A stretch of 64,000 nucleotides of DNA, taken from Candidatus Eiseniibacteriota bacterium. Its GTDB lineage: Bacteria > Joyebacterota > Joyebacteria > Joyebacterales > Joyebacteraceae. The position numbers and the translations under genes were made by a program. The notes below the pieces were generated by a model. That model was not told the origin of the DNA, searched no databases, and saw nothing but the letters and a program-made list of their open reading frames with translations. How positions within the stretch are numbered: the stretch's first letter is position 1; every line of letters begins with the position of its first letter. This document shows, in pieces, positions 49,496 through 60,902 of this stretch. The stretch is from NCBI GenBank assembly GCA_030622115.1, contig JAUXGN010000009.1:1-64000 (forward strand). The letters run 5' to 3'.

Positions 49496-49513
49496 TTGTG
49501 AATGTGAACACAA
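49496..49513 (+). promoter_or_regulatory. Predicted Rex operator TTGTGAATGTGAACACAA
   Basis: TTGTG-N8-CACAA 18-bp inverted repeat located 25 bp before rex. Confidence 0.75.
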
Positions 49514-49537: not shown

Positions 49538-50200
49538 ATGATTGTTGGTTCAGGACACATTCCCAGCGAGACAACTGACCGCCTGTTTTCCTATTTGAGA
49601 CCCCTCATGTGTCTGCTCAATCGAGGGAGCGACACTGTGTCGTCCCGGGAGCTGGCTAGACTTTGCAAGGTGAACCCGTCGGTCATCCGCAGGGACTTCT
49701 CGTACGTCGGGAACTTGGGAACGCGGGGCGTCGGATACGGCGTCGTCGAACTCATGGAGAACATCCGCAGAGCACTGAAGTTCGATGATGACATGAAAAT
49801 AGCGCTGGTCGGCGTGGGGAACATCGGACGGGCGCTGCTCGAGCACGTGAGGTTCGGGATGGAGGGTTTCAAAATAGTCGCGGCGTTCGACAACAATCCA
49901 GAGAAGATCGGGCGGACGGTAGGGCGATTGGTAGTCGAGGACGCGATAGCTCTGGAAGAGAGAATCCAGTCCGAAGCGATTCAGCTGGTCATAGTCGCAG
50001 TACCCGAGATATGTGCCCCTGATGTGGCGAGACGAGTTGGCGACGCCGGTGTGAATTCCGTGCTCTCGTTTTCCCCGTGTGGGCTCGCGATGCCCGACAA
50101 TGTCAGGGTGACGTGCGTTGATTTGAGCTTGGAGATGGCGAGACTCGTGTATCACTCGAGCTCCCGGGATGGGGCGCGGGGCAAGGATGGAGCGGCATGA
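49538..50200 (+). CDS. rex: Redox-sensing transcriptional repressor Rex
   Basis: LARLCKVNPSVIRRDFSYVGNLGTRGVGYGV; Rossmann fold KIALVGVGNIGRALL. Confidence 0.96.
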   Translation: MIVGSGHIPSETTDRLFSYLRPLMCLLNRGSDTVSSRELARLCKVNPSVIRRDFSYVGNLGTRGVGYGVVELMENIRRALKFDDDMKIALVGVGNIGRALLEHVRFGMEGFKIVAAFDNNPEKIGRTVGRLVVEDAIALEERIQSEAIQLVIVAVPEICAPDVARRVGDAGVNSVLSFSPCGLAMPDNVRVTCVDLSLEMARLVYHSSSRDGARGKDGAA

Positions 50201-50718
50201 GCGACACGGCGAACGAACGGACCGGTAGGGCGAGGGACTACTGCTACCTGTTCGTGATGCTCTTCGCGATATGGATGGTTCTGACATCGAGTCTGCAGTG
50301 GCAGGAAGTTATCACCGGCGTTCTCGTCTCCGTTGTTCTGGCTGTCTACCTCGGCAGGACGTACGCCACTCTCGGGATGCCGCCGCTCTCGGTCAAGCGA
50401 ATCGGGTACTTCATCGTCTATCTCGCAGTCTTGTCCATGGAGATCGTGCGCGCCAATTTCGAGGTTGCCTACATTGTGCTGCATCCGAAGCTTCCCATCA
50501 AGCCGGGTGTCGTTGCGGTGAAGACCTGTCTCAAGCAGGACATCGCGAAGACGATACTGGCCAACTCCATCACGCTGACACCCGGGACGTTCACGCTGGA
50601 CATCATTGACGACACACTGCTTGTTCACTGGATCGTTGTGCGGTCGGAGGACAACGAGGAAACCGCGCGACTGATCAGCGGACGGTTTGAGAAATATCTG
50701 AAGGCGGTCTTCGCATGA
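50197..50718 (+). CDS. mrpE: MrpE/MnhE-type cation antiporter subunit
   Basis: SVKRIGYFIVYLAVLSMEIVRANFEVAYIVLHPKLPIKPGVV; ANSITLTPGTFTLDI. Confidence 0.93.
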   Translation: MSDTANERTGRARDYCYLFVMLFAIWMVLTSSLQWQEVITGVLVSVVLAVYLGRTYATLGMPPLSVKRIGYFIVYLAVLSMEIVRANFEVAYIVLHPKLPIKPGVVAVKTCLKQDIAKTILANSITLTPGTFTLDIIDDTLLVHWIVVRSEDNEETARLISGRFEKYLKAVFA

Positions 50719-50975
50719 GCGAGACAGTGATCCTCATCTTCTTGGGCATGATCGGTCTGGGCATAGTGTTGTGTCTGCTGCGTTTTCTGAAGGGGCCGAC
50801 CGCGTCAGATCGGGCGGTTGCCGTGGACACCGCGTGCACGGTGACGACGGCGCTCCTTGTTTTGATGGCACTCTGGTTCCAGCGGCGCATCTATCTGGAT
50901 GTTGCACTGGTGTATGCCGTGTTGATGTTCATAGGGCTCGTGTCGGTTGCCAGATACCTGGAGAGGGGCATATAG
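50715..50975 (+). CDS. mrpF: MrpF-type subunit
   Basis: RFLKGPTASDRAVAVDTACTVTTALLVLMAL; small 3-TM protein. Confidence 0.9.
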   Translation: MSETVILIFLGMIGLGIVLCLLRFLKGPTASDRAVAVDTACTVTTALLVLMALWFQRRIYLDVALVYAVLMFIGLVSVARYLERGI

Positions 50976-51314
50976 ATGGTGCGCGTTGTCGCGGGGACCA
51001 TCGTCAGTGGAATCGGTGTTCTGTTCCTGCTCGTCGGAAGTCTCGGCGTGTTCAGGATGCCCGATGTCTACAACCGACTCCAGGCGGGCACGAAGTGCAC
51101 GACGCTCGGTGCTTGCCTGGCCGCAGTGGGCGTCGGGATCATTGAGCCGCAGTGGTTCTGGAAGACGTTCGTGATCGCACTCTTTATCCTCGTGACGAAT
51201 CCGATATCCAATCATGCTATCGGAAGGGCTTCAAAGAAGAGCGGCGTACCGCTTTGTGACAGAAGTGTTGTGGACGTTACGGAGAACCTCAAGGAGTACG
51301 AAGGCAGATCATGA
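50976..51314 (+). CDS. mrpG: MrpG-type subunit
   Basis: LLVGSLGVFRMPDVYNRLQAGTKCTTLGACLAAVG; TNPISNHAIGRAS. Confidence 0.93.
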   Translation: MVRVVAGTIVSGIGVLFLLVGSLGVFRMPDVYNRLQAGTKCTTLGACLAAVGVGIIEPQWFWKTFVIALFILVTNPISNHAIGRASKKSGVPLCDRSVVDVTENLKEYEGRS

Positions 51315-51550
51315 TTATCTTCGTTTCGCTGCTTGTGCTCATAATGCTCGTCGCCGCAATTGCGGCCCTGATCTTCAGGGACCTCTTGAGCGCGGTGATT
51401 GCATCGTGTCTGGTCAGTCTGCTTGCATCGATCCTGTTCCTGTTCCTGCAGGCGCCGGACGTGGCCATGGCCGAGGCATCGATCGGGGCGGCGCTCATAA
51501 CGGCGGTCTTCGTCATCGCAATCAGGCGAACCGACAGGTACGAAGAATGA
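51311..51550 (+). CDS. DUF4040/MbhD-like subunit (MrpA C-terminal-like)
   Basis: AALIFRDLLSAVIASCLVSLLASILFLFLQAPDVAMAEASIGAALITAVFVIAIRRTDRYEE. Confidence 0.9.
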   Translation: MIIFVSLLVLIMLVAAIAALIFRDLLSAVIASCLVSLLASILFLFLQAPDVAMAEASIGAALITAVFVIAIRRTDRYEE

Positions 51551-52236
51551 GAAGCATCGCAATCATAATTTTGCTCGCTATCGTTGCCGTCGGCATCGGC
51601 GTGGCCCTCATGGCCATTCCGTTCGGCGTGGCCAAGACGCAGGTCGGCGACCACTACACCGAGAGCGGTATCGGTGACACGGGAGCGTCCAACATTGTGA
51701 CGTCCGTCGTCGTCGGCTACAGAGCATTTGACACGCTGGGAGAGATAACAATCCTCTTCGTCGCGGCAATGGGGTTGGGAGCCGTGCTGGCTGGCGGAAG
51801 GAAGCTCGGACAGCGAAGGGACGTCGAGCCGGCGAGCCTCATTCTGCGCACCGGCTGCAGGTTCCTGTTCCCGCTCCTGCTTCTCTTCGGAGCGTACATC
51901 TTCATCCACGGGCATCTCACTCCAGGCGGCGGGTTCCAGGGCGGCGCGGTCATTGCATCCGCGTTCCTGCTCGTCTACCTGAGTTGTCCGGGACGACGGG
52001 TCAGCAAGGTCTGGAGCCAGACAACGGAATCGCTCGGAGCGCTCACCTTCGTGGTGCTGGGACTCGTTGGGCTGACCGTGGGTGGCCACTACTATCTGAG
52101 TAGCTTCATGCCGCACGGTGTCGTGAACGAGCTTTTCAGCGCCGGGATAATCCCTGTGATCTATGTGGCGATCGGGCTCAAGGTCGGATCGGATCTCACG
52201 GGGATCATAGACGGCATGATGGAGGAGACTATATGA
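51547..52236 (+). CDS. mrpB: MbhE/MrpB-like fused subunit
   Basis: GASNIVTSVVVGYRAFDTLGEITILFVAAMGLGAVL followed by LILRTGCRFLFPLLLLFGAYIFIHGHLTPGGGFQGGAVIASAF. Confidence 0.9.
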   Translation: MRSIAIIILLAIVAVGIGVALMAIPFGVAKTQVGDHYTESGIGDTGASNIVTSVVVGYRAFDTLGEITILFVAAMGLGAVLAGGRKLGQRRDVEPASLILRTGCRFLFPLLLLFGAYIFIHGHLTPGGGFQGGAVIASAFLLVYLSCPGRRVSKVWSQTTESLGALTFVVLGLVGLTVGGHYYLSSFMPHGVVNELFSAGIIPVIYVAIGLKVGSDLTGIIDGMMEETI

Positions 52237-52592
52237 GCTTCCTCCAGGACTACGTCTATTACATCGGAGCGTTCGGTCTCGTGCTGATCGGCCTCTTCAT
52301 CATTCTGTCGAGGCGCAACCTGATCAAAGTCATCATCGGACTCAGCATCCTCGATACCGGCATCAACCTGTTCCTGATATCCGTGGGGTACATCAGCAAG
52401 GGGACCGCCCCGATCTTCTCCAAGCCGGGGCTCGTAGCGGAGGACATGGTCGACCCCGTGCCGCAGGCGCTTGTCCTCACATCGATCGTCATCGGCGTCG
52501 CTGTGCTGGCGCTCGCGCTGGCCCTTGCCATGCGACTGCACAAGCTCCACGGCACGCTCGATCTTCGTAAGATAGGGGAGCTGAAATGGTAA
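52233..52592 (+). CDS. mrpC: MrpC/NuoK-like subunit
   Basis: SRRNLIKVIIGLSILDTGINLFLISVGY...DPVPQALVLTSIVIGVAVLALALALA. Confidence 0.94.
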   Translation: MSFLQDYVYYIGAFGLVLIGLFIILSRRNLIKVIIGLSILDTGINLFLISVGYISKGTAPIFSKPGLVAEDMVDPVPQALVLTSIVIGVAVLALALALAMRLHKLHGTLDLRKIGELKW

Positions 52593-54055
52593 GCCCTGTC
52601 CTGCTGATTGTTATTCCTCTGGGGCTCGCCTTCTGTGTGCCTCTGATCGGCATGGTGTCCAAGCGGTTTGCCAGGTTCGTACCGGTTGTCGCGTGTCTCT
52701 TCAATCTCGTGGTCTCGGTGCAGCTGCTTCCTGCAGTATTGAGCAAGCCCATCGTTGTCGATCTTGGAGGGTTTGGCGCGCCGTTTTCCATCAATCTGTT
52801 CGTCGGGCCGGTCGGCATCCTGTTTTCGCTGCTTATCGCGCTCGCCGGGTTTGTGGTGTCGCTCTATGCTCTTGCGTACATTGACAAGGGCCCCACGACC
52901 AGATACCACACGCTCTACCTGCTGCTTCTCGTGGGCGCGACGGGTGTTGTTCTGACCGGCGACGTGTTCAATCTCTTTGTGTTCTTCGAGATACTCTGCA
53001 TATCATCCTACGTCCTCGTCGCGTACCGAGGGGACAAGGACGGCGTCGAATCCGCCGTGAAGTACCTTATCCAGGGGGCGCTCGGGTCCGCGCTTCTGCT
53101 GACGGGGATCGGTCTTCTGTACGGCCTCTTCGGCACGCTCAATATGGCGCACATCGCGGTGCAAGCAGGCTCCGCCGACCCCATTCCACTGTTCGTCGCC
53201 ATGGCACTCATCGTTGTCGGACTTGGTGTAGAAGCGGCCATATTCCCTCTCAACGCCTGGCTTCCCGACGCGCACTCCTCGGCTCCCTCTTCCATCAGTG
53301 CGATTCTCTCGGGCATAGCCATAGAGGTGGGTCTCTATGCCGTTGTCAGAATGGTGTTCACGGTGTTTGGGGCGTCGAGCATGCTGTCCTTCCTCATGTT
53401 CCTCGGCGTGCTGACGCTGCTCGTTGGTGAGCTGTGCGCGTTCGCCCAGAGCAACATCAAGAGGATGCTCGCCTACTCGAGCATTGGACAGATCGGCCTC
53501 ATCATTTTCGCCATCGCGATCGCAACGTCCGGCTCCATCACGGGCGGCTTCTTCCAGCTCGTGAGCCACACGCTCTCGAAAGCGCTGCTCTTTTTGGCCG
53601 CCGGCTACATGATCTACCGCAGTGGATCAATGGACATCTCCTCGCTTGAAGGAATGGGGAAGAGAATGCCGCTGACCGCGTTCGCCTTCGCTGTTGGGGC
53701 GTTCTCGCTCGTGGGACTGCCGCCGTTCGCGGGGTTTCCGAGCAAGCTCCTCATCATACGCGGTGCGCTGGCCGATGGAGGGGCGCTGCTGGCGTTGCTC
53801 GTCGGACTCGTCCTGCTGGGCACGGTCATCGAGGGGGCCTACTTCTTCAGAGTGATCCAGACGGTCTTCTTCAAGAAGGGTGACGGAGAGACTGCTAGAT
53901 GTGAGGCTCCGGCCATCGCCCTTGTGTCCATGTTTGTGCTTGTCGCGCTTATCATCGTGATCGGCGTTTATCCATCGCTCATCATCGGTGTCCTGAATTC
54001 CGCAGCGTCTGAACTCCTGGTGAGGGCAGACTACATCGGGAGGGTGTTAGGATGA
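52586..54055 (+). CDS. mrpD: MrpD/NuoN-like antiporter subunit
   Basis: DVFNLFVFFEILCISSYVLVAY; AIFPLNAWLPDAHSSAPSSISAILSG; KRMLAYSSIGQIG. Confidence 0.95.
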   Translation: MVSPVLLIVIPLGLAFCVPLIGMVSKRFARFVPVVACLFNLVVSVQLLPAVLSKPIVVDLGGFGAPFSINLFVGPVGILFSLLIALAGFVVSLYALAYIDKGPTTRYHTLYLLLLVGATGVVLTGDVFNLFVFFEILCISSYVLVAYRGDKDGVESAVKYLIQGALGSALLLTGIGLLYGLFGTLNMAHIAVQAGSADPIPLFVAMALIVVGLGVEAAIFPLNAWLPDAHSSAPSSISAILSGIAIEVGLYAVVRMVFTVFGASSMLSFLMFLGVLTLLVGELCAFAQSNIKRMLAYSSIGQIGLIIFAIAIATSGSITGGFFQLVSHTLSKALLFLAAGYMIYRSGSMDISSLEGMGKRMPLTAFAFAVGAFSLVGLPPFAGFPSKLLIIRGALADGGALLALLVGLVLLGTVIEGAYFFRVIQTVFFKKGDGETARCEAPAIALVSMFVLVALIIVIGVYPSLIIGVLNSAASELLVRADYIGRVLG

Positions 54056-55908
54056 GCCTCGAACTCCTGATGGTCGTTGCGCTTGGCGGTTCGTTGCTCA
54101 CGTACGTTCTGGGCAGGGTCTCATCAAGGCTCAGGAACGGCTTCGCGGTGCTCGTGTCGCTGGCGCTTGTGGCGATGGTTGCCTCGCTCTACGGCAAAGC
54201 CCTGCACGTTTCTTACTACGAGGACTTCCTCGGTATGTCGCTGGTGCTGAGGGTCAGCGGGCTGTCGTGGCTCTTCGCGATGACCGCATCGACACTCGGG
54301 TGTCTCTCGGTGGTGTTCTCTCTAAGCTACATGAAGGGGAAGGAGCGCACGAGCTTCTACTACTCGATGCTGCTTCTAGTGAATGCGGCGATGCTGGGCG
54401 TAGTGCTTTCCGGCGATCTGCTCTCGCTCTTCATTTTCTGGGAGATCATGAGCTGGTCAACGTTCCTTCTGATCAGCTACAACGGGGGGCCGGCACTCGC
54501 AGCGGGAATGAAGTACTTCGTGATGTCGTTCGTGGGGTCTTTGGCGATGCTGGCTGGCCTGCTGACGGTGTACGGAAGTTTCGGAACGCTCGAGTTCGGG
54601 GGCGTCGCGGCCGGAATGTTATCGGCGTCGCCGGGATACATCCTTGCGATATTCGTCCTGTTCGGCGTGGCCTTCGGCACGAAGAACGCGATCTGGCCGT
54701 TTCACGCATGGCTGCCGCCCGCACATTCAGAGGCGCCCTCACCGTTCAGCGCGATTCTCTCGGGCATACTCATCAAGATGGGGGTCTACGGGTTCCTGCT
54801 CATCATCTTCGTGCTCGTGGGGCTCAGGAACTTCATGGCGCTTGGTGCGGACGGGCTCCCGCTTCATACGGTTCTCTCGATAGTCGGCGCTATCACGATC
54901 CTGTTCCCGACGTTCATGGCGATCATGCAGAACGACGCCAAGAAGCTGCTTGCTTGGTCGACCGTGGCCCAGGCAGGCTACATCATTCTGGGCATCTCGT
55001 TCGGTACGAGTCTGAGCGTCGCCGGCGGTGTGTTCCACTTCGTGAACCACGCTGTGTTCAAGGCGCTTCTCTTCATGGTGGTGGGCACCGTCGAGTACAG
55101 GACCAAGGGCGTGCGTGATCTCGATTCCCTGGGTGGCCTCATCAAGAAGATGCCCTTGACGTTTGCCGTGGCACTCATCGGTGTGTGCGGTCTGATCGGC
55201 GTGCCGCTCACCAACGGGTTCGTTTCGAAGTGGCTTATCTATAAGACACTCATACTGGAGCGGTCTCCGTTCCTGGCTCTCGTCGCGCTCTTCGGCACGT
55301 GGGGGACAATCCTTTACAGCTACAAGTTCCTCCACAACATATTCCTGGGGCAGCTACCCGAGAAGTACAAGGACCTTGAGAGAGCACCCATGACGATGCG
55401 CCTTCCGATGACGGTACTCTCGATCGTGGTCGTGCTGTTCGGGGTTCTGCCGGGCATTCCGCTTAGCGTCATCAACTCGATCGATACCTCGTTCGGGTTG
55501 AAGCCGCTCAACGTGACGTTGTGGGGGCTCGCGTCCGACACGGGCGCTTTGAACACAATCAATATCCTCGCCGCGGTGTTTGCGGGACTGCTCATTGTGT
55601 GGCTGGTTCTCAAGTCCGGAGGCAGGAAGGTGTCTGTCGACCAAGCTGACAACTATGCGGCCGGTGCTGCGATACCGAAAGACAAATACCAGTACTCGGT
55701 CGGCTTCTACGCGCCGCTCACGCGAATGGTCGCTCCGTATCTCAAGGACTTTATGGATTCGTTCTATATGAGGCTCGCCGGGTGGGTCGGCGGTCTCGGG
55801 AGTGGCATCAGACGCATCTACACCGGGTACGTCGGCGATTACGCAATGTACATTGTATTGTTCCTGGCGGCCCTCATATTCGTCCAACTGACGTGGAGTC
55901 CATGGTAA
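54052..55908 (+). CDS. Second MrpD/MrpA/NuoL-like antiporter subunit
   Basis: GDLLSLFIFWEIMSWSTFLLISYNGG; AIWPFHAWLPPAHSEAPSPFSAILSGILIKMGVYG; KKLLAWSTVAQAGYIILG. Confidence 0.94.
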   Translation: MSLELLMVVALGGSLLTYVLGRVSSRLRNGFAVLVSLALVAMVASLYGKALHVSYYEDFLGMSLVLRVSGLSWLFAMTASTLGCLSVVFSLSYMKGKERTSFYYSMLLLVNAAMLGVVLSGDLLSLFIFWEIMSWSTFLLISYNGGPALAAGMKYFVMSFVGSLAMLAGLLTVYGSFGTLEFGGVAAGMLSASPGYILAIFVLFGVAFGTKNAIWPFHAWLPPAHSEAPSPFSAILSGILIKMGVYGFLLIIFVLVGLRNFMALGADGLPLHTVLSIVGAITILFPTFMAIMQNDAKKLLAWSTVAQAGYIILGISFGTSLSVAGGVFHFVNHAVFKALLFMVVGTVEYRTKGVRDLDSLGGLIKKMPLTFAVALIGVCGLIGVPLTNGFVSKWLIYKTLILERSPFLALVALFGTWGTILYSYKFLHNIFLGQLPEKYKDLERAPMTMRLPMTVLSIVVVLFGVLPGIPLSVINSIDTSFGLKPLNVTLWGLASDTGALNTINILAAVFAGLLIVWLVLKSGGRKVSVDQADNYAAGAAIPKDKYQYSVGFYAPLTRMVAPYLKDFMDSFYMRLAGWVGGLGSGIRRIYTGYVGDYAMYIVLFLAALIFVQLTWSPW

Positions 55909-56798
55909 TGCGAATTCTGTGGCTCGTGCTTTCACCGCTCATTGCGCTTGCGGTCGGCCTGTTCTTCCTCGGTCTGTCGAGGAGGGTCATGGCGAGGATC
56001 CACTGGCGTTACGGTCCGCCGCTGTACCAGCCGCTAATCGAGATCTTCCGCTACTTTACCCAGAAGGGTTCGAGCCATGGTGTGCTGTTCGGTTTGGGGA
56101 TCGTCCTGTCGCTGGCGGGTTCGATCGTAGTAATTCTTTTCCTGCCGTTCGGCGGTATCTGTTCGATGAGCGGCTCGGGAGGAATGCTGGTCGTGCTCTA
56201 CATGATGCTCCTGGCGCCGCTCGGGATCGCGCTCAGCGGCGGTGAGGCGGCCAATCCGAATGCCAGCATAGGGATTTCGCGGAAGCTCATGCTCGCACTG
56301 GGGTACGAGCTGCCGTTCTTGCTCATCGTTCTGGCGATCATGACGCACTACGACACGATCTCTCTCGTTGATATCGTGTCGGCCCAGCGTGAGACGGCTT
56401 CAGCCTTCGCTTCATTCCCTCTCGTGCTGTCGGGGATTGCCTATCTGCTCATTCTGCCTGCAATGCTCGGAATGAGGCCATTTGAAGTCGTTCATGCGCC
56501 TCAAGAGATATCATCCGGGCCGATCGCGGAGTACAGCGGGCCGTACCTGGGACTCGTCACAATCCAGCACGCCCTGACCACGTTCATCGGGATATCGCTC
56601 TTCGTGAACCTCGTGTGGGGTGGCGCGGGGAATCCGTTCGTCTTCTTCCTGAAAATGCTGGTCGTGTTAGCATTCGGCCTTTTTGTCAACGCGGCATTCC
56701 CGCGCCTGCGAGTGGAGCAGGCTGTTCGCTACCTCTGGAGATGGCCGACTCTGATCGCTTTCGTCGGGCTGATTCTCGTGGTTACACTGGGGAGATAA
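55902..56798 (+). CDS. NuoH/MbhM-like membrane subunit
   Basis: RRVMARIHWRYGPPLYQPLIEIFRYFTQKG; MRPFEVVHAPQEISSGPIAEYSGPYLGL. Confidence 0.92.
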   Translation: MVMRILWLVLSPLIALAVGLFFLGLSRRVMARIHWRYGPPLYQPLIEIFRYFTQKGSSHGVLFGLGIVLSLAGSIVVILFLPFGGICSMSGSGGMLVVLYMMLLAPLGIALSGGEAANPNASIGISRKLMLALGYELPFLLIVLAIMTHYDTISLVDIVSAQRETASAFASFPLVLSGIAYLLILPAMLGMRPFEVVHAPQEISSGPIAEYSGPYLGLVTIQHALTTFIGISLFVNLVWGGAGNPFVFFLKMLVVLAFGLFVNAAFPRLRVEQAVRYLWRWPTLIAFVGLILVVTLGR

Positions 56799-56801
56799 GG
56801 G

Positions 56802-57359
56802 ATGGATCGGAACCAGCTCACCAAATGGTTCAAGGCGCCCACGAAGATGGCGCACAAGTACTCGCTGCACGCGGTCTACTTCTGCACCGGGTGCGGGGTC
56901 ATCGAGATACCGCCGACGATCACAGCGCGGTGGGACGCCGAGCGGTTCGGAGTGATCCCCGCAGCGACCCCGAGACACGCGAACCTCTTCCTGATCACCG
57001 GGTACGTCTCGGTCAAGACGTTGAGGGCCGTCATCAGGACGTACGAGCAGATGCCGGAACCGAAGTTCACAGTAGGTTTCGGATCGTGTCCGATCAACGG
57101 CGGCATGTACTGGGACTCGTACAACACGATCAATCAGCTGGACAAATATATTCCCATTGATGGCTGGATAGCGGGATGCATGCCTAGACCGGAAGCGATC
57201 TTCGTGGCTGTGACGCACCTGTGGACGCTCATAGACAAAGACATGGCAGACGGCTACAAACGCTACAGGAAGCACTACGCACAGTACCGGGCAAACCAGG
57301 AGCAGGTTCTTGGTGAACTCGAGTGGCCGCCGCTCTTCCAGTCAGAGAGAGAAGGATGA
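56802..57359 (+). CDS. NuoB/MbhJ-like [4Fe-4S] small subunit
   Basis: VYFCTGCGVIEIPPTI...FGSCPINGGMYWDSYN...IAGCMPRPEAI; CxxC spacing as in hydrogenase-type subunits. Confidence 0.93.
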   Translation: MDRNQLTKWFKAPTKMAHKYSLHAVYFCTGCGVIEIPPTITARWDAERFGVIPAATPRHANLFLITGYVSVKTLRAVIRTYEQMPEPKFTVGFGSCPINGGMYWDSYNTINQLDKYIPIDGWIAGCMPRPEAIFVAVTHLWTLIDKDMADGYKRYRKHYAQYRANQEQVLGELEWPPLFQSEREG

Positions 57360-57916
57360 ACGATTCTCCGATGAACGGACAGCTCAAGAAGAAACTCGAT
57401 TCGGTCTTTCGGGACATAGAGACCGACGTGTCGGATGACGGTCGGCTTACGATACACGCCACGAAGGAATCGGTCCTGACCGTGCTGAGTCTGCTCAAGG
57501 ATGAGGGGTGGAGCTTCCTTCAGCTGGTTTCGTGCGTGGACTGGATCAAGCAGGACGAGATCGAGATCGTCTATGTCCTGTCGTCCTACGTTGGAGTGGA
57601 GGACGGCCCGGACGCGAAGGGTGAGCCGTACGCGAAGGGTGAGCCGGACGCGAAGAGGGAGAGCATCCTGCTGAAGACGCGCCTCCCGCGTTCGGAACCG
57701 AGTGTCCTCACGGCGATTCACGTTTTCGCGAACGCGGAGCCGTACGAGAGGGAGATCCACGAGCTGTTCGGGGTCCATTTTGAAGGCCACCCCAGACTGA
57801 CTCCACTCTTCCTCGATAGAGAGTACAAGATCCCGCCGTTCAGGAAGGACTTCGACACCGAGCAGTACGTCAAGGATGTCTTCGACAGCGTTCCGCCAAT
57901 TGATGAGGAAAGCTAG
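57356..57916 (+). CDS. NuoC/MbhK-like 30 kDa subunit
   Basis: GWSFLQLVSCVDWIKQDEIEIVYVLSS...ANAEPYEREIHELFGVHFEGHPRLTPLFLDRE. Confidence 0.92.
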   Translation: MNDSPMNGQLKKKLDSVFRDIETDVSDDGRLTIHATKESVLTVLSLLKDEGWSFLQLVSCVDWIKQDEIEIVYVLSSYVGVEDGPDAKGEPYAKGEPDAKRESILLKTRLPRSEPSVLTAIHVFANAEPYEREIHELFGVHFEGHPRLTPLFLDREYKIPPFRKDFDTEQYVKDVFDSVPPIDEES

Positions 57917-57922
57917 GAATCC

Positions 57923-59020
57923 ATGAGAGAACTCGAACTCTATTTCGGTCCTCAGCATCTGGGTATGGTCGGCAATCTGAGCATCACGTTGACGGTCGAA
58001 GGCGACCGCGTCGTGAACGCCGCGATGAACCCGGGGTATCTGCACAGGGGCTTCGAGAAGCTCATGGAACAGCGCAGCTGGATCAAGAACTTCCCGATGG
58101 TGTGCAGGATGAACATCCTCGACCCTGATTCCATGGAGATGATCTACGCCATGGCGGTGGAGAAGCTGGCAGGGATCGAGGTTCCGGAGAGAGCGCATTA
58201 CATACGCAGCATCTATCTGGAACTCGCTCGCGCCGGGTCGCACCTCTTCGGTCTGTGGGCGTATTCGAACATGCTGGGTTTCGACACCGTCGCACAGTGG
58301 GCGATGTATCATCGCGACCTCATTCTCGATCGGTTCGAGGAACTCACCGGCGGCAGGGTGTATCACATCTACATCTGGCCGGGCGGCGTGCGGAGGGATT
58401 TCCCGGAGGGGTTTGAGGACAGGCTGGTGTCCACGCTTCATTCCATCGGAGGCTGTGTTCCGGACTACGATGCTACGTTTTTTAACAACCGGCTCTTCGC
58501 GGACAGGGCGCGGGGCATAGGCGTCGTCACGAGAGAAGATGCTCTGGCGATGGGTGCGGTGGGGCAGGTTCTGAGGGCGACGGGCGTGGACGACGATGTT
58601 AGAAAGATCGATCCGTACGCGGCGTATGACAAGGTGCCCTGGGACGTTCACACCAGTGAGGACGGCGATGCGTACTCGAGGGTTTGGATCGTCCGGAATG
58701 AGATGATCGAGAGCGTTCATATGATCTTCAAGCTCTTGGACGCGATGCCCAAGGGTGAGGTATACAACAGGATCCCGAACCCGTTCAAGTGGCGCATTCC
58801 AGAAGGCGAGACGTACGTGCGCTGCGAATCATCGCGTGGGGAACTCGGGCTGTATCTCGTGAGCGACGGTGGGGACAAGCCGTACCGGGCGCATTTCAGG
58901 ACACCTTCCTATACGCATGGACTCACGATCCTCGAGAAGGCGCTCAAGGGAGCGAGTATCTCCGACGTGGGCAATATCATGATGAGCCTCTACGTCGTGG
59001 CCCCGGAGATAGACAGGTAG
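57923..59020 (+). CDS. NuoD/MbhL-like large subunit without NiFe cysteine motifs
   Basis: FGPQHLGMVGNLSITLTVEGDRVVNAAMNPGYLHRGFEKLMEQRSWIKNFPMVCRMNILDPDS...SSRGELGLYLVSDGGDKPYRAHFRTPSYTHG...LYVVAPEIDR. Confidence 0.94.
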   Translation: MRELELYFGPQHLGMVGNLSITLTVEGDRVVNAAMNPGYLHRGFEKLMEQRSWIKNFPMVCRMNILDPDSMEMIYAMAVEKLAGIEVPERAHYIRSIYLELARAGSHLFGLWAYSNMLGFDTVAQWAMYHRDLILDRFEELTGGRVYHIYIWPGGVRRDFPEGFEDRLVSTLHSIGGCVPDYDATFFNNRLFADRARGIGVVTREDALAMGAVGQVLRATGVDDDVRKIDPYAAYDKVPWDVHTSEDGDAYSRVWIVRNEMIESVHMIFKLLDAMPKGEVYNRIPNPFKWRIPEGETYVRCESSRGELGLYLVSDGGDKPYRAHFRTPSYTHGLTILEKALKGASISDVGNIMMSLYVVAPEIDR

Positions 59021-59048: not shown

Positions 59049-60902
59049 ATGGCCAAAGGCAGTCTGCTCAGTTCGCTCAAGGTAGCCAGGTTTCTCTTTA
59101 GGAAGCCCAAGACTCTCAGGTATCCGTTCGAGAAAAAGGAGCCCGCTCTGAGGTACAGGGGCTTCCACCTGAACGACTGGGACACGTGCACCGGATGCGG
59201 GAACTGCGCGGACATCTGCCCGAACACGGCGATAGAGATGGTCGAAGTGCTCGATCTCGAGGTCGGGCCGGGTGAAAAGAACGAACGGCCCAAGCTCGAC
59301 TACGGCAGGTGCTGCTTCTGCGGTCTGTGCATCGATATCTGCCCACCGGGTTCACTCAGGCTCTCCAGGGACTACTTCCATACCCACTTCAATACGGACA
59401 CCTTCGTCTTCGTGCCGAAGGATGAGAAGAGCGACGAGGAGACGTTTCTCCCGGCCGAGAACTACTCGATTCTGAAGGCGAGCCTCACGCACCGGAAACG
59501 GGACTACGAAGGCTTCTCGTCCGACCTCTCGTACGCGCTCTTCGAGCCCGAGCGCGTTCCCATGCCTGAGGTTCCGCCCGCGGAGAGGACGCTTTCCTTC
59601 GTCGAACAGGTCATCGGCTACGACAGGGAACAGGCGGTGCGCGAGGCCGAGCGGTGTCTGGAGTGCCGGCTCTGCGAGGAGGCCTGCCCGGCTCACATGA
59701 AGATCTCGGACTACATTGGGGCCATCTATAACGGCGAGCCGGAGGAGTCACTCCGGAAGATATACGAGGACAACCCCATTCCGTCGATCTGCGGACGCGT
59801 CTGCATGAAGCACTGCGAGGACGCGTGCTCGCTCAGATTGAGGGGTGAGCCGCTGGCGATCAGATGGCTCAAGAGGTATGTGGCCGATACGATCCAGGAC
59901 TTCAAGTCGACTCTCGAGCAGCAACCGGGCGAGCCGACCGGGAAGAAGGTGGCGGTCATCGGAGCGGGCCCCGGAGGGCTATCGGTGGCGTATTTCTTGA
60001 GGCTCATGGGCGACGACGTCGTTGTGTTCGACGAGCTTTCTGGTGGCGGTGGTGTGATACGCATTGGGCCGCCCAGGTACAGGCTGCCCCTGGCGAGCAT
60101 CGAGAAGGATGCGGATCATGTTGCATCACTCGGTGTGGAGTTCCGGTACAACACGAAGGTGGGAACGGACGTGCGTTTCCAGGAGCTGCTCGATGAGTAT
60201 GACGCGGTCTATCTCGGCATCGGTCTGACCGTGAGCCGCTCCACGAGAGTTGAGAATGCGGACAAGTGCCGGCTTGCGCTTGACTTCCTCAGGAAGAACA
60301 AGACGGAGTCCATGAGCAAGGTCACGGAAGAGGTCATCGTGATCGGTGGCGGCAACGTGGCGATGGATGTCGCGAGGGAGGCCCTCAGACTTCAGCACAT
60401 GCAATACCCGGGGGAGAAGGTCGTAACGCGCATGGTCTCGCTCGAGGACTGGGACGAGATGCCCGCGACCGAGGAGGAGATAGAAGAGACACGGGAAGAG
60501 GCCGTCGAGTTCAATCCCGCATGGGGTCCGAAGAAGGTCCTGCTCGACGACGACGGCAACGTGAGCGGACTCCTGTGCATGAAGGTGAAGTCCGTGTTTG
60601 ATGATGAGGGGAAATTCGCACCCACGTTCTTCGAGGACCAGGAGATGGTGCTCAAGGGAACGACCATCATCGAGGCCATCGGACAGGGATCGGATTTCTC
60701 ATTCATCCCCGAAGATATGCTCACGAAACTCCGATTCAATGAGATGCGAAAGGTCAGCGTTGACGAGAACGGCATGACCTCGCTCCCGGGGATCTTCGCC
60801 GGAGGAGACATCGTCAACACGAACCTGGATGCAGTCACCGCGATTGCCGATGCCAAGATAGCCTCGGAAGGCATCCACAAGTGGATGACCCGCTCCCGGT
60901 AG
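59049..60902 (+). CDS. NuoI-like 2x[4Fe-4S] ferredoxin fused to GltD/NfnB-like NAD(P)H-flavoprotein
   Basis: CTGCGNCADICPNTAIE and CCFCGLCIDICPPGSL; CLECRLCEEACPAHMKISDYI, CGRVCMKHCEDAC; VAVIGAGPGGLSVAYFLRLMGDDVVVF; VIVIGGGNVAMDVAREA; GIFAGGDI. Confidence 0.95.
   Translation: MAKGSLLSSLKVARFLFRKPKTLRYPFEKKEPALRYRGFHLNDWDTCTGCGNCADICPNTAIEMVEVLDLEVGPGEKNERPKLDYGRCCFCGLCIDICPPGSLRLSRDYFHTHFNTDTFVFVPKDEKSDEETFLPAENYSILKASLTHRKRDYEGFSSDLSYALFEPERVPMPEVPPAERTLSFVEQVIGYDREQAVREAERCLECRLCEEACPAHMKISDYIGAIYNGEPEESLRKIYEDNPIPSICGRVCMKHCEDACSLRLRGEPLAIRWLKRYVADTIQDFKSTLEQQPGEPTGKKVAVIGAGPGGLSVAYFLRLMGDDVVVFDELSGGGGVIRIGPPRYRLPLASIEKDADHVASLGVEFRYNTKVGTDVRFQELLDEYDAVYLGIGLTVSRSTRVENADKCRLALDFLRKNKTESMSKVTEEVIVIGGGNVAMDVAREALRLQHMQYPGEKVVTRMVSLEDWDEMPATEEEIEETREEAVEFNPAWGPKKVLLDDDGNVSGLLCMKVKSVFDDEGKFAPTFFEDQEMVLKGTTIIEAIGQGSDFSFIPEDMLTKLRFNEMRKVSVDENGMTSLPGIFAGGDIVNTNLDAVTAIADAKIASEGIHKWMTRSR

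Follow-up and report, generated by a model that had tools for sequence, protein, structure and literature searches.

The open reading frame (ORF) described here is the last gene of a rex-mrpEFGBBCD(A)-nuoHBCD-like operon, whose genes overlap or almost touch, in the window, i.e. the whole stretch of 64,000 nucleotides that was analysed. The sequence 3' of the ORF is unrelated to the operon, and the genes 5' of it are Mrp- and Nuo-like, in agreement with the pump context implied by the original prediction. The features are as follows (coordinates in the window, strand, identity):

49496-49513, no strand assigned: Rex-operator-like palindrome TTGTGAATGTGAACACAA, 24 bp 5' of rex
49538-50200, +: rex, redox (NADH/NAD+) sensing repressor (PF06971 and PF02629); 4 bp overlap with mrpE
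50197-50718, +: MrpE-like (conserved position and order)
50715-50975, +: MrpF-like (conserved order)
50976-51314, +: MrpG-like (conserved order)
51311-51550, +: MrpB N-part-like, DUF4040-type (conserved order)
51547-52236, +: MrpB C-part-like (conserved order)
52233-52592, +: MrpC-like (NCBIfam PRK08388 and Mrp subunit C models)
52586-54055, +: antiporter-like subunit, MbsH/MrpD type (PF00361; PRK08377, 466 bits)
54052-55908, +: second antiporter-like subunit, MbsH' type (PF00361; PRK08668, 514 bits)
55902-56798, +: NuoH/MbsM-like membrane subunit (PF00146, 4.5e-52)
56802-57359, +: NuoB/MbsJ-like subunit of the proximal [4Fe-4S] cluster (best PDB match MbsJ 6u8y_J, 4.3e-64; CTGCG loop ungapped)
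57356-57916, +: NuoC/MbsK-like (PF00329)
57923-59020, +: NuoD/MbsL-like, without NiFe ligands (PF00346; best PDB match MbsL 6u8y_L, 1.6e-95)
59049-60902, +: NuoI/MbsN-like dicluster ferredoxin domain fused to a GltD-type FAD/NAD(P) module, 617 aa (single ORF, Pfam, NCBIfam, alignment, predicted structure)
59187-59342, +: two predicted [4Fe-4S] motifs of the NuoI domain, C47-C57 and C88-C98 (invariant in 72/72)
59655-59828, +: two predicted [4Fe-4S] motifs of the GltD module, C203-C213 and C248-C260, the latter C-x3-C-x3-C-x3-C (invariant in 72/72)
59961-59978, +: FAD motif GAGPGG, residues 305-310 (conserved alignment columns)
60345-60368, +: pyridine nucleotide motif GGGNVAMD, residues 433-440 (orthologue alignment)
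60438-60446, +: SLE closing Rossmann beta-2, predicted NADH-type (NfnB and a minority of the orthologues have YRR here)

The last ORF starts with ATG and runs for 617 codons with 0 internal stops and both halves in one frame, as had been claimed. According to Pfam, it comprises Fer4_7 (residues 46-101), Fer4_20 (183-283) and Pyr_redox_2 (299-599), which bears out the proposed order of an N-terminal two-cluster NuoI-like segment and a C-terminal GltD-type segment; the additional Cys clusters, the FAD motif and the nucleotide motif ascribed to the latter were likewise located. Sixteen Cys residues of the protein form four motifs (47/50/53/57, 88/91/94/98, 203/206/209/213 and 248/252/256/260), predicted to correspond to four [4Fe-4S] sites, and all 16 are invariant in the 72 distinct full-length orthologues. 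Among solved structures, the N-terminal domain is nearest to MbsN (1.2e-29) and more weakly related to MbhN (1.9e-10), and for the C-terminal part the nearest are NfnL/NfnB and, in NfnABC and StnABC, the GltD domains. The predicted structure has a mean pLDDT of 82, with low values before residue 40 and around residues 110-165. From residue 163 onwards the model adopts the NfnL fold according to VIA-align (Z 44.3, rmsd 2.2 Å, 435 residues), in rows that cover mainly residues 176-617, the confidence of the N-terminal domain model being low (block means 32-84). The linker, singled out earlier as the place where a join could hide, is conserved across the 72 full-length orthologues and free of stops and frameshifts. 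An assembly or frameshift artefact can be ruled out, because the two halves share one frame, the linker is conserved and these orthologues, most of which come from separate assemblies, can be aligned over their whole length. In a genome of the same genus, the fusion gene (L147; G002 contig C78) is split between frames, as a result of either an error or a broken gene; thus errors or breaks do occur in relatives, though not in the copy from the window.

Further NuoI-GltD fusions adjoining Mrp genes, the existence of which had been left to be checked, are found widely and with the mrp-nuo order kept. A genome scan yielded 49 loci, and in 40 of the 42 with upstream sequence nuoD lies directly 5' of the fusion; L038 (Omnitrophota) and L043 (Thiomargarita) do not follow this pattern. 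The fusion is present in 69 of 103 Thermotogota genomes (65 full-length and 4 truncated copies), where the order mrp-nuoH-B-C-D-fusion also holds in the loci examined; within the window's own family it has a patchy distribution, with 7 of 20 genomes carrying it. Pairwise distances between orthologues correlate strongly both for the fusion versus NuoD (r = 0.96) and for the NuoI half versus the GltD half (r = 0.93), in each case among related sequences and with no formal test, suggesting that a single complex has been inherited together. Most of the Pseudomonadota hosts found belong to lineages of sulfur oxidisers (Lamprocystis, Parasulfuritortus, Thiomargarita).

A few loci depart from this arrangement. 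Full-length fusions without Nuo or Mrp neighbours occur in Omnitrophota (L124:9368-11185, next to a formate-tetrahydrofolate ligase-like gene) and in Thiomargarita (L043:3668-5473). In Nitrospirae (L051:9917-11782) the domains are reversed, GltD-type followed by Fer4, beside Rieske-like and cytochrome b-like genes, and two Leptospirillum loci (L050 and L055) are similar.

The fusion is not new, contrary to what the original prediction suggested: it is standard in operons of the Thermotoga maritima mbx type, and the NCBIfam model NF010590/PRK13984 describes the same architecture (residues 2-615 aligned to positions 7-608 of 611, 4e-201). The architecture is therefore already catalogued, under the curated name "putative oxidoreductase". 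With 669 bits against a cut-off of 946 (1215 bits for the T. maritima copy), the window protein is a homologue outside the strict PRK13984 equivalog. An explicit description of the NuoI-GltD fusion was not found in our literature search, which was incomplete and does not establish its absence. The fusion is thus a conserved, known but poorly explained type of enzyme.

The bacterial Mbx gene set (mrpEFGBBCD, a second antiporter subunit, nuoHBCD and the fusion) is complete in the window. The T. maritima locus (L113, from a genome we take to be that of strain MSB8) shares the gene order and a full-length fusion of 618 aa (L113:14925-16781; about 45% identity), encoded by the last gene of the mbx operon, presumably TM1217, and this protein too matches PRK13984 over its full length. 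The published passage on this region places mal1 genes before the mbx operon (PMC2246101), as seen at L113. Two differences stand out: the window NuoD has RMNI..V in place of RICV..C, with the loss of two MBS-type Cys residues, and rex starts the operon of the window, whereas none was detected at L113. The Pyrococcus furiosus MBS (6u8y) has the same set of subunits and the same three-Cys type of cluster loop, and the NuoB, NuoD and NuoI homologues of the window are nearest to MbsJ, MbsL and MbsN among solved structures. However, MbsN (208 aa) carries no flavoprotein, and MbsL has C85 and C385, which are absent from the window NuoD. Indeed, as stated in the original prediction, the N subunit of archaeal MBH and MBS is a small ferredoxin-like protein (139 aa in 6cfw_N, 208 aa in 6u8y_N). 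Complex I shares NuoH, NuoB, NuoC, NuoD and NuoI homologues as well as antiporter-type subunits, but the operon lacks NuoEFG, and its NuoB has a different Cys motif.

The catalytic subunits are MBS-like. NuoB aligns with MbsJ without gaps, including the proximal-cluster loop; in MbsJ, shortening of this loop leaves C25 unable to bind the proximal cluster, which is site-differentiated and held by three Cys residues, the first one (C25) not being a ligand (PMC7684303). In three orthologues (L032, L024 and L128) the C25 position of NuoB is occupied by Ala, Ala or Gly, while the next Cys is constant, and this natural variation agrees with a three-Cys cluster. NuoD lacks all four Ni-ligand Cys residues and any CxxC pair, which rules out a hydrogenase of the MBH/group 4 [NiFe] type. 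At the positions of His38 and Tyr87 of complex I (Nqo4, 2fug_4), which we take to be quinone-site residues, the window NuoD has V16 and I65, respectively; His38 is kept in many orthologues, but the Tyr87 position is V, L or I, and never Tyr, in 89 aligned orthologue rows. The MbsL remnants C85 and C385 correspond to N64 and V359 in the window and are kept in Thermotogota and Pseudomonadota orthologues, so that the pair is lost together in the window's clade and kept together in the others. The window's clade has a Cys three residues earlier instead (C61). In MBS, mutants show that the remnant pair is non-catalytic (PMC7684303).

The cofactor preference of the fused module can be approached from the strand following the GGGN(T)AMD motif. 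In NfnB/NfnL this strand ends in YRR, which usually contacts the 2'-phosphate of NADPH. The fusion orthologues have LE in 69, LQ in 1 and YRR in 2 (L118 and L063) of 72 cases. An acidic residue here is a classic sign of NADH, hence the window protein is probably NADH-specific, a preference moderately supported by the sequence and weakened by its reliance on a short motif beside an insertion. Three more YRR cases were found in Thermotogota (L143, L144 and L145), giving four together with L118. All four have a GltD homologue within about 0.9 kb 3' of the fusion, and L143 has nfnA-nfnB, as if the operon had taken up a transhydrogenase. A GltD homologue at such close range is absent from all nine other Thermotogota loci examined. 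The link between YRR and Nfn is not universal, since the fifth case, from the window's own family (L063/L128), has a tRNA synthetase-like gene 3' of the fusion instead.

The operon is headed by rex, and the ligand of Rex is NADH. Rex adjoins the 5' end of the operon in L011, L012, L018, L021, L027 and L029, and its 3' end in L022 and L054; it is found beside the operon in Eisenbacteria, Fermentibacteria and Planctomycetes, and at the opposite end in Aerophobetes. The palindrome TTGTGAATGTGAACACAA (49496-49513) matches TTGTGAANNNNTTCACAA with at most 2 mismatches, as no other site in the window does; such a match also appeared, anywhere in the sequence, in 5 of 100 shuffled windows (about 5%), but the placement of the candidate operator just 5' of rex is apt.

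The source genome also contains Rnf and NuoE/NuoF-like genes. A second Mrp-linked complex (L138, on G000 contig C32) has a true [NiFe] large subunit (CGIC, DPCYSC), accompanied by a molybdopterin oxidoreductase as well as an Fe-S protein that looks AsrA-like, and resembles the unassigned cluster described for Saganbacteria (PMC6349859). The genome has a completeness rating of 100%, and a search of it for the MenD and MqnA/D families of the menaquinone routes gave no hits; UbiA-family prenyltransferases are present, so that a quinone may still occur.

We propose, with a probability of roughly 0.55, that the ORF encodes the NuoI/MbsN-type N subunit of a bacterial Mbx, an NADH-linked, MBS-type, Mrp-coupled pump, with a GltD-type flavoprotein on its C-terminus, that the acceptor is probably sulfane sulfur, and that the complex is possibly reversible. 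This proposal draws on the conserved operon order and co-inheritance, the MbsJ-like NuoB loop, a NuoD without Ni ligands or Tyr87, the absence of MenD and MqnA/D, the prevalence of the LE-type motif (69/72), the linkage to rex in several phyla, the sulfur response of T. maritima mbxA and the sulfur-oxidising Pseudomonadota hosts. The sequence itself shows the fusion with its clusters, the operon, the MBS-like nature of the catalytic subunits, the NADH-type motif and the linkage to rex; cofactor, direction, acceptor and stoichiometry are inferred. The direct wiring of a pyridine nucleotide into a Mrp-coupled, complex-I-like pump, the central idea of the original prediction, is well supported by the sequence. 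Electrons would enter from NADH via FAD, the C248/252/256/260 cluster and the C203/206/209/213 cluster (or these two in reverse order), and would proceed through the two NuoI-type clusters to the proximal cluster in NuoB. The terminal acceptor would be a small molecule in the NuoB/NuoD chamber, most likely sulfane sulfur or polysulfide as in archaeal MBS, an analogy based on homology only, and redox chemistry in the chamber would drive ion movement via NuoH and the Mrp-type subunits. The reverse path, in which the ion gradient drives reduction of NAD+, may be possible, and the NuoI domain may in addition serve as a docking site for ferredoxin. It counts against this proposal that the step from NADH to polysulfide yields little free energy for two pump modules. 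In one study, T. maritima mbxA expression rises 4.4-fold with sulfur, but neither NAD(P)H nor reduced ferredoxin supported sulfur reductase activity in membranes (PMC9431562). The negative membrane assays are the main counter-evidence; conditions, donor or direction may lie behind them.

Less probably, though still deserving some weight, the complex could be an Rnf analogue, with ferredoxin docking at the NuoI domain, NAD(P)+ reduced at the FAD and ions exported. Mbx has long been described in this way in the published passages (PMC3608648, PMC4596419, PMC6349859), MbsN and MbhN take electrons from ferredoxin (PMC7684303), and the redox span from ferredoxin to NAD+ pays for pumping. However, in MBH, MBS and complex I it is the chemistry of the NuoB/NuoD chamber that powers pumping, and a route via the N subunit alone would bypass this chamber, yet the MBS-like proximal motif is conserved; moreover, the genome already has Rnf, and these passages on Mbx do not mention the fused domain. 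Nfn-like bifurcation or confurcation at the fused FAD, splitting electrons from NAD(P)H between ferredoxin and the pump, had been raised in the original prediction and now seems improbable. The C-terminal module has the NfnL fold (Z 44.3), and like NfnL/NfnB and the GltD domains of NfnABC/StnABC it carries the FAD and nucleotide motifs and two clusters; two branches, the NuoI clusters and a docked ferredoxin, can also be imagined. On the other hand, NfnB draws its Glu ligand from a CPQExQC segment, of which only CMKHC is left in the fusion (CGRVCMKHCEDAC in the window); the PQE part is missing from the GltD domains of NfnABC/StnABC as well. Moreover, SLE replaces YRR. In addition, neither the operon nor the rest of the genome yielded an NfnA partner, and NfnAB was not found (PF10418 clearly matches a PyrK-like protein in the pyrimidine operon and, more weakly, the hydrogenase cluster on C32), and where NfnAB is part of the operon it is encoded separately downstream. 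Least probable of all is a reduced, NADH-oxidising and quinone-reducing complex I with the GltD module in place of NuoEFG, for although the overall architecture, the Ni-less NuoD and the His38 position kept in many orthologues recall complex I, Tyr87 is never present, the window lacks His38 too, NuoB has the CTGC loop of MBS rather than the adjacent Cys pair of complex I, and the menaquinone families are missing.

Returning to the NADH-linked, MBS-type pump, it is tempting, if only tentatively, to extend it to a widespread, Rex-controlled, stripped-down complex I operating between NADH and sulfane sulfur, with NADH (SLE) and NADPH (YRR) forms, the latter with Nfn genes in the Thermotogota operon, and running backwards in sulfur oxidisers. 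Two assignments have been given to bacterial Mbx, ferredoxin:NADP+ oxidoreductase and ferredoxin-fed sulfur reductase, in published passages that leave the fused flavoprotein domain unmentioned. This domain, the switch between NADH and NADPH motifs and the links to Rex and Nfn lead to testable predictions for T. maritima. The complex would stand midway between MBS and complex I, having gained its entry for pyridine nucleotide via gene fusion rather than via NuoEFG, and, if the extended scenario is true, sulfur oxidisers would make NADH from sulfur by running it in reverse.
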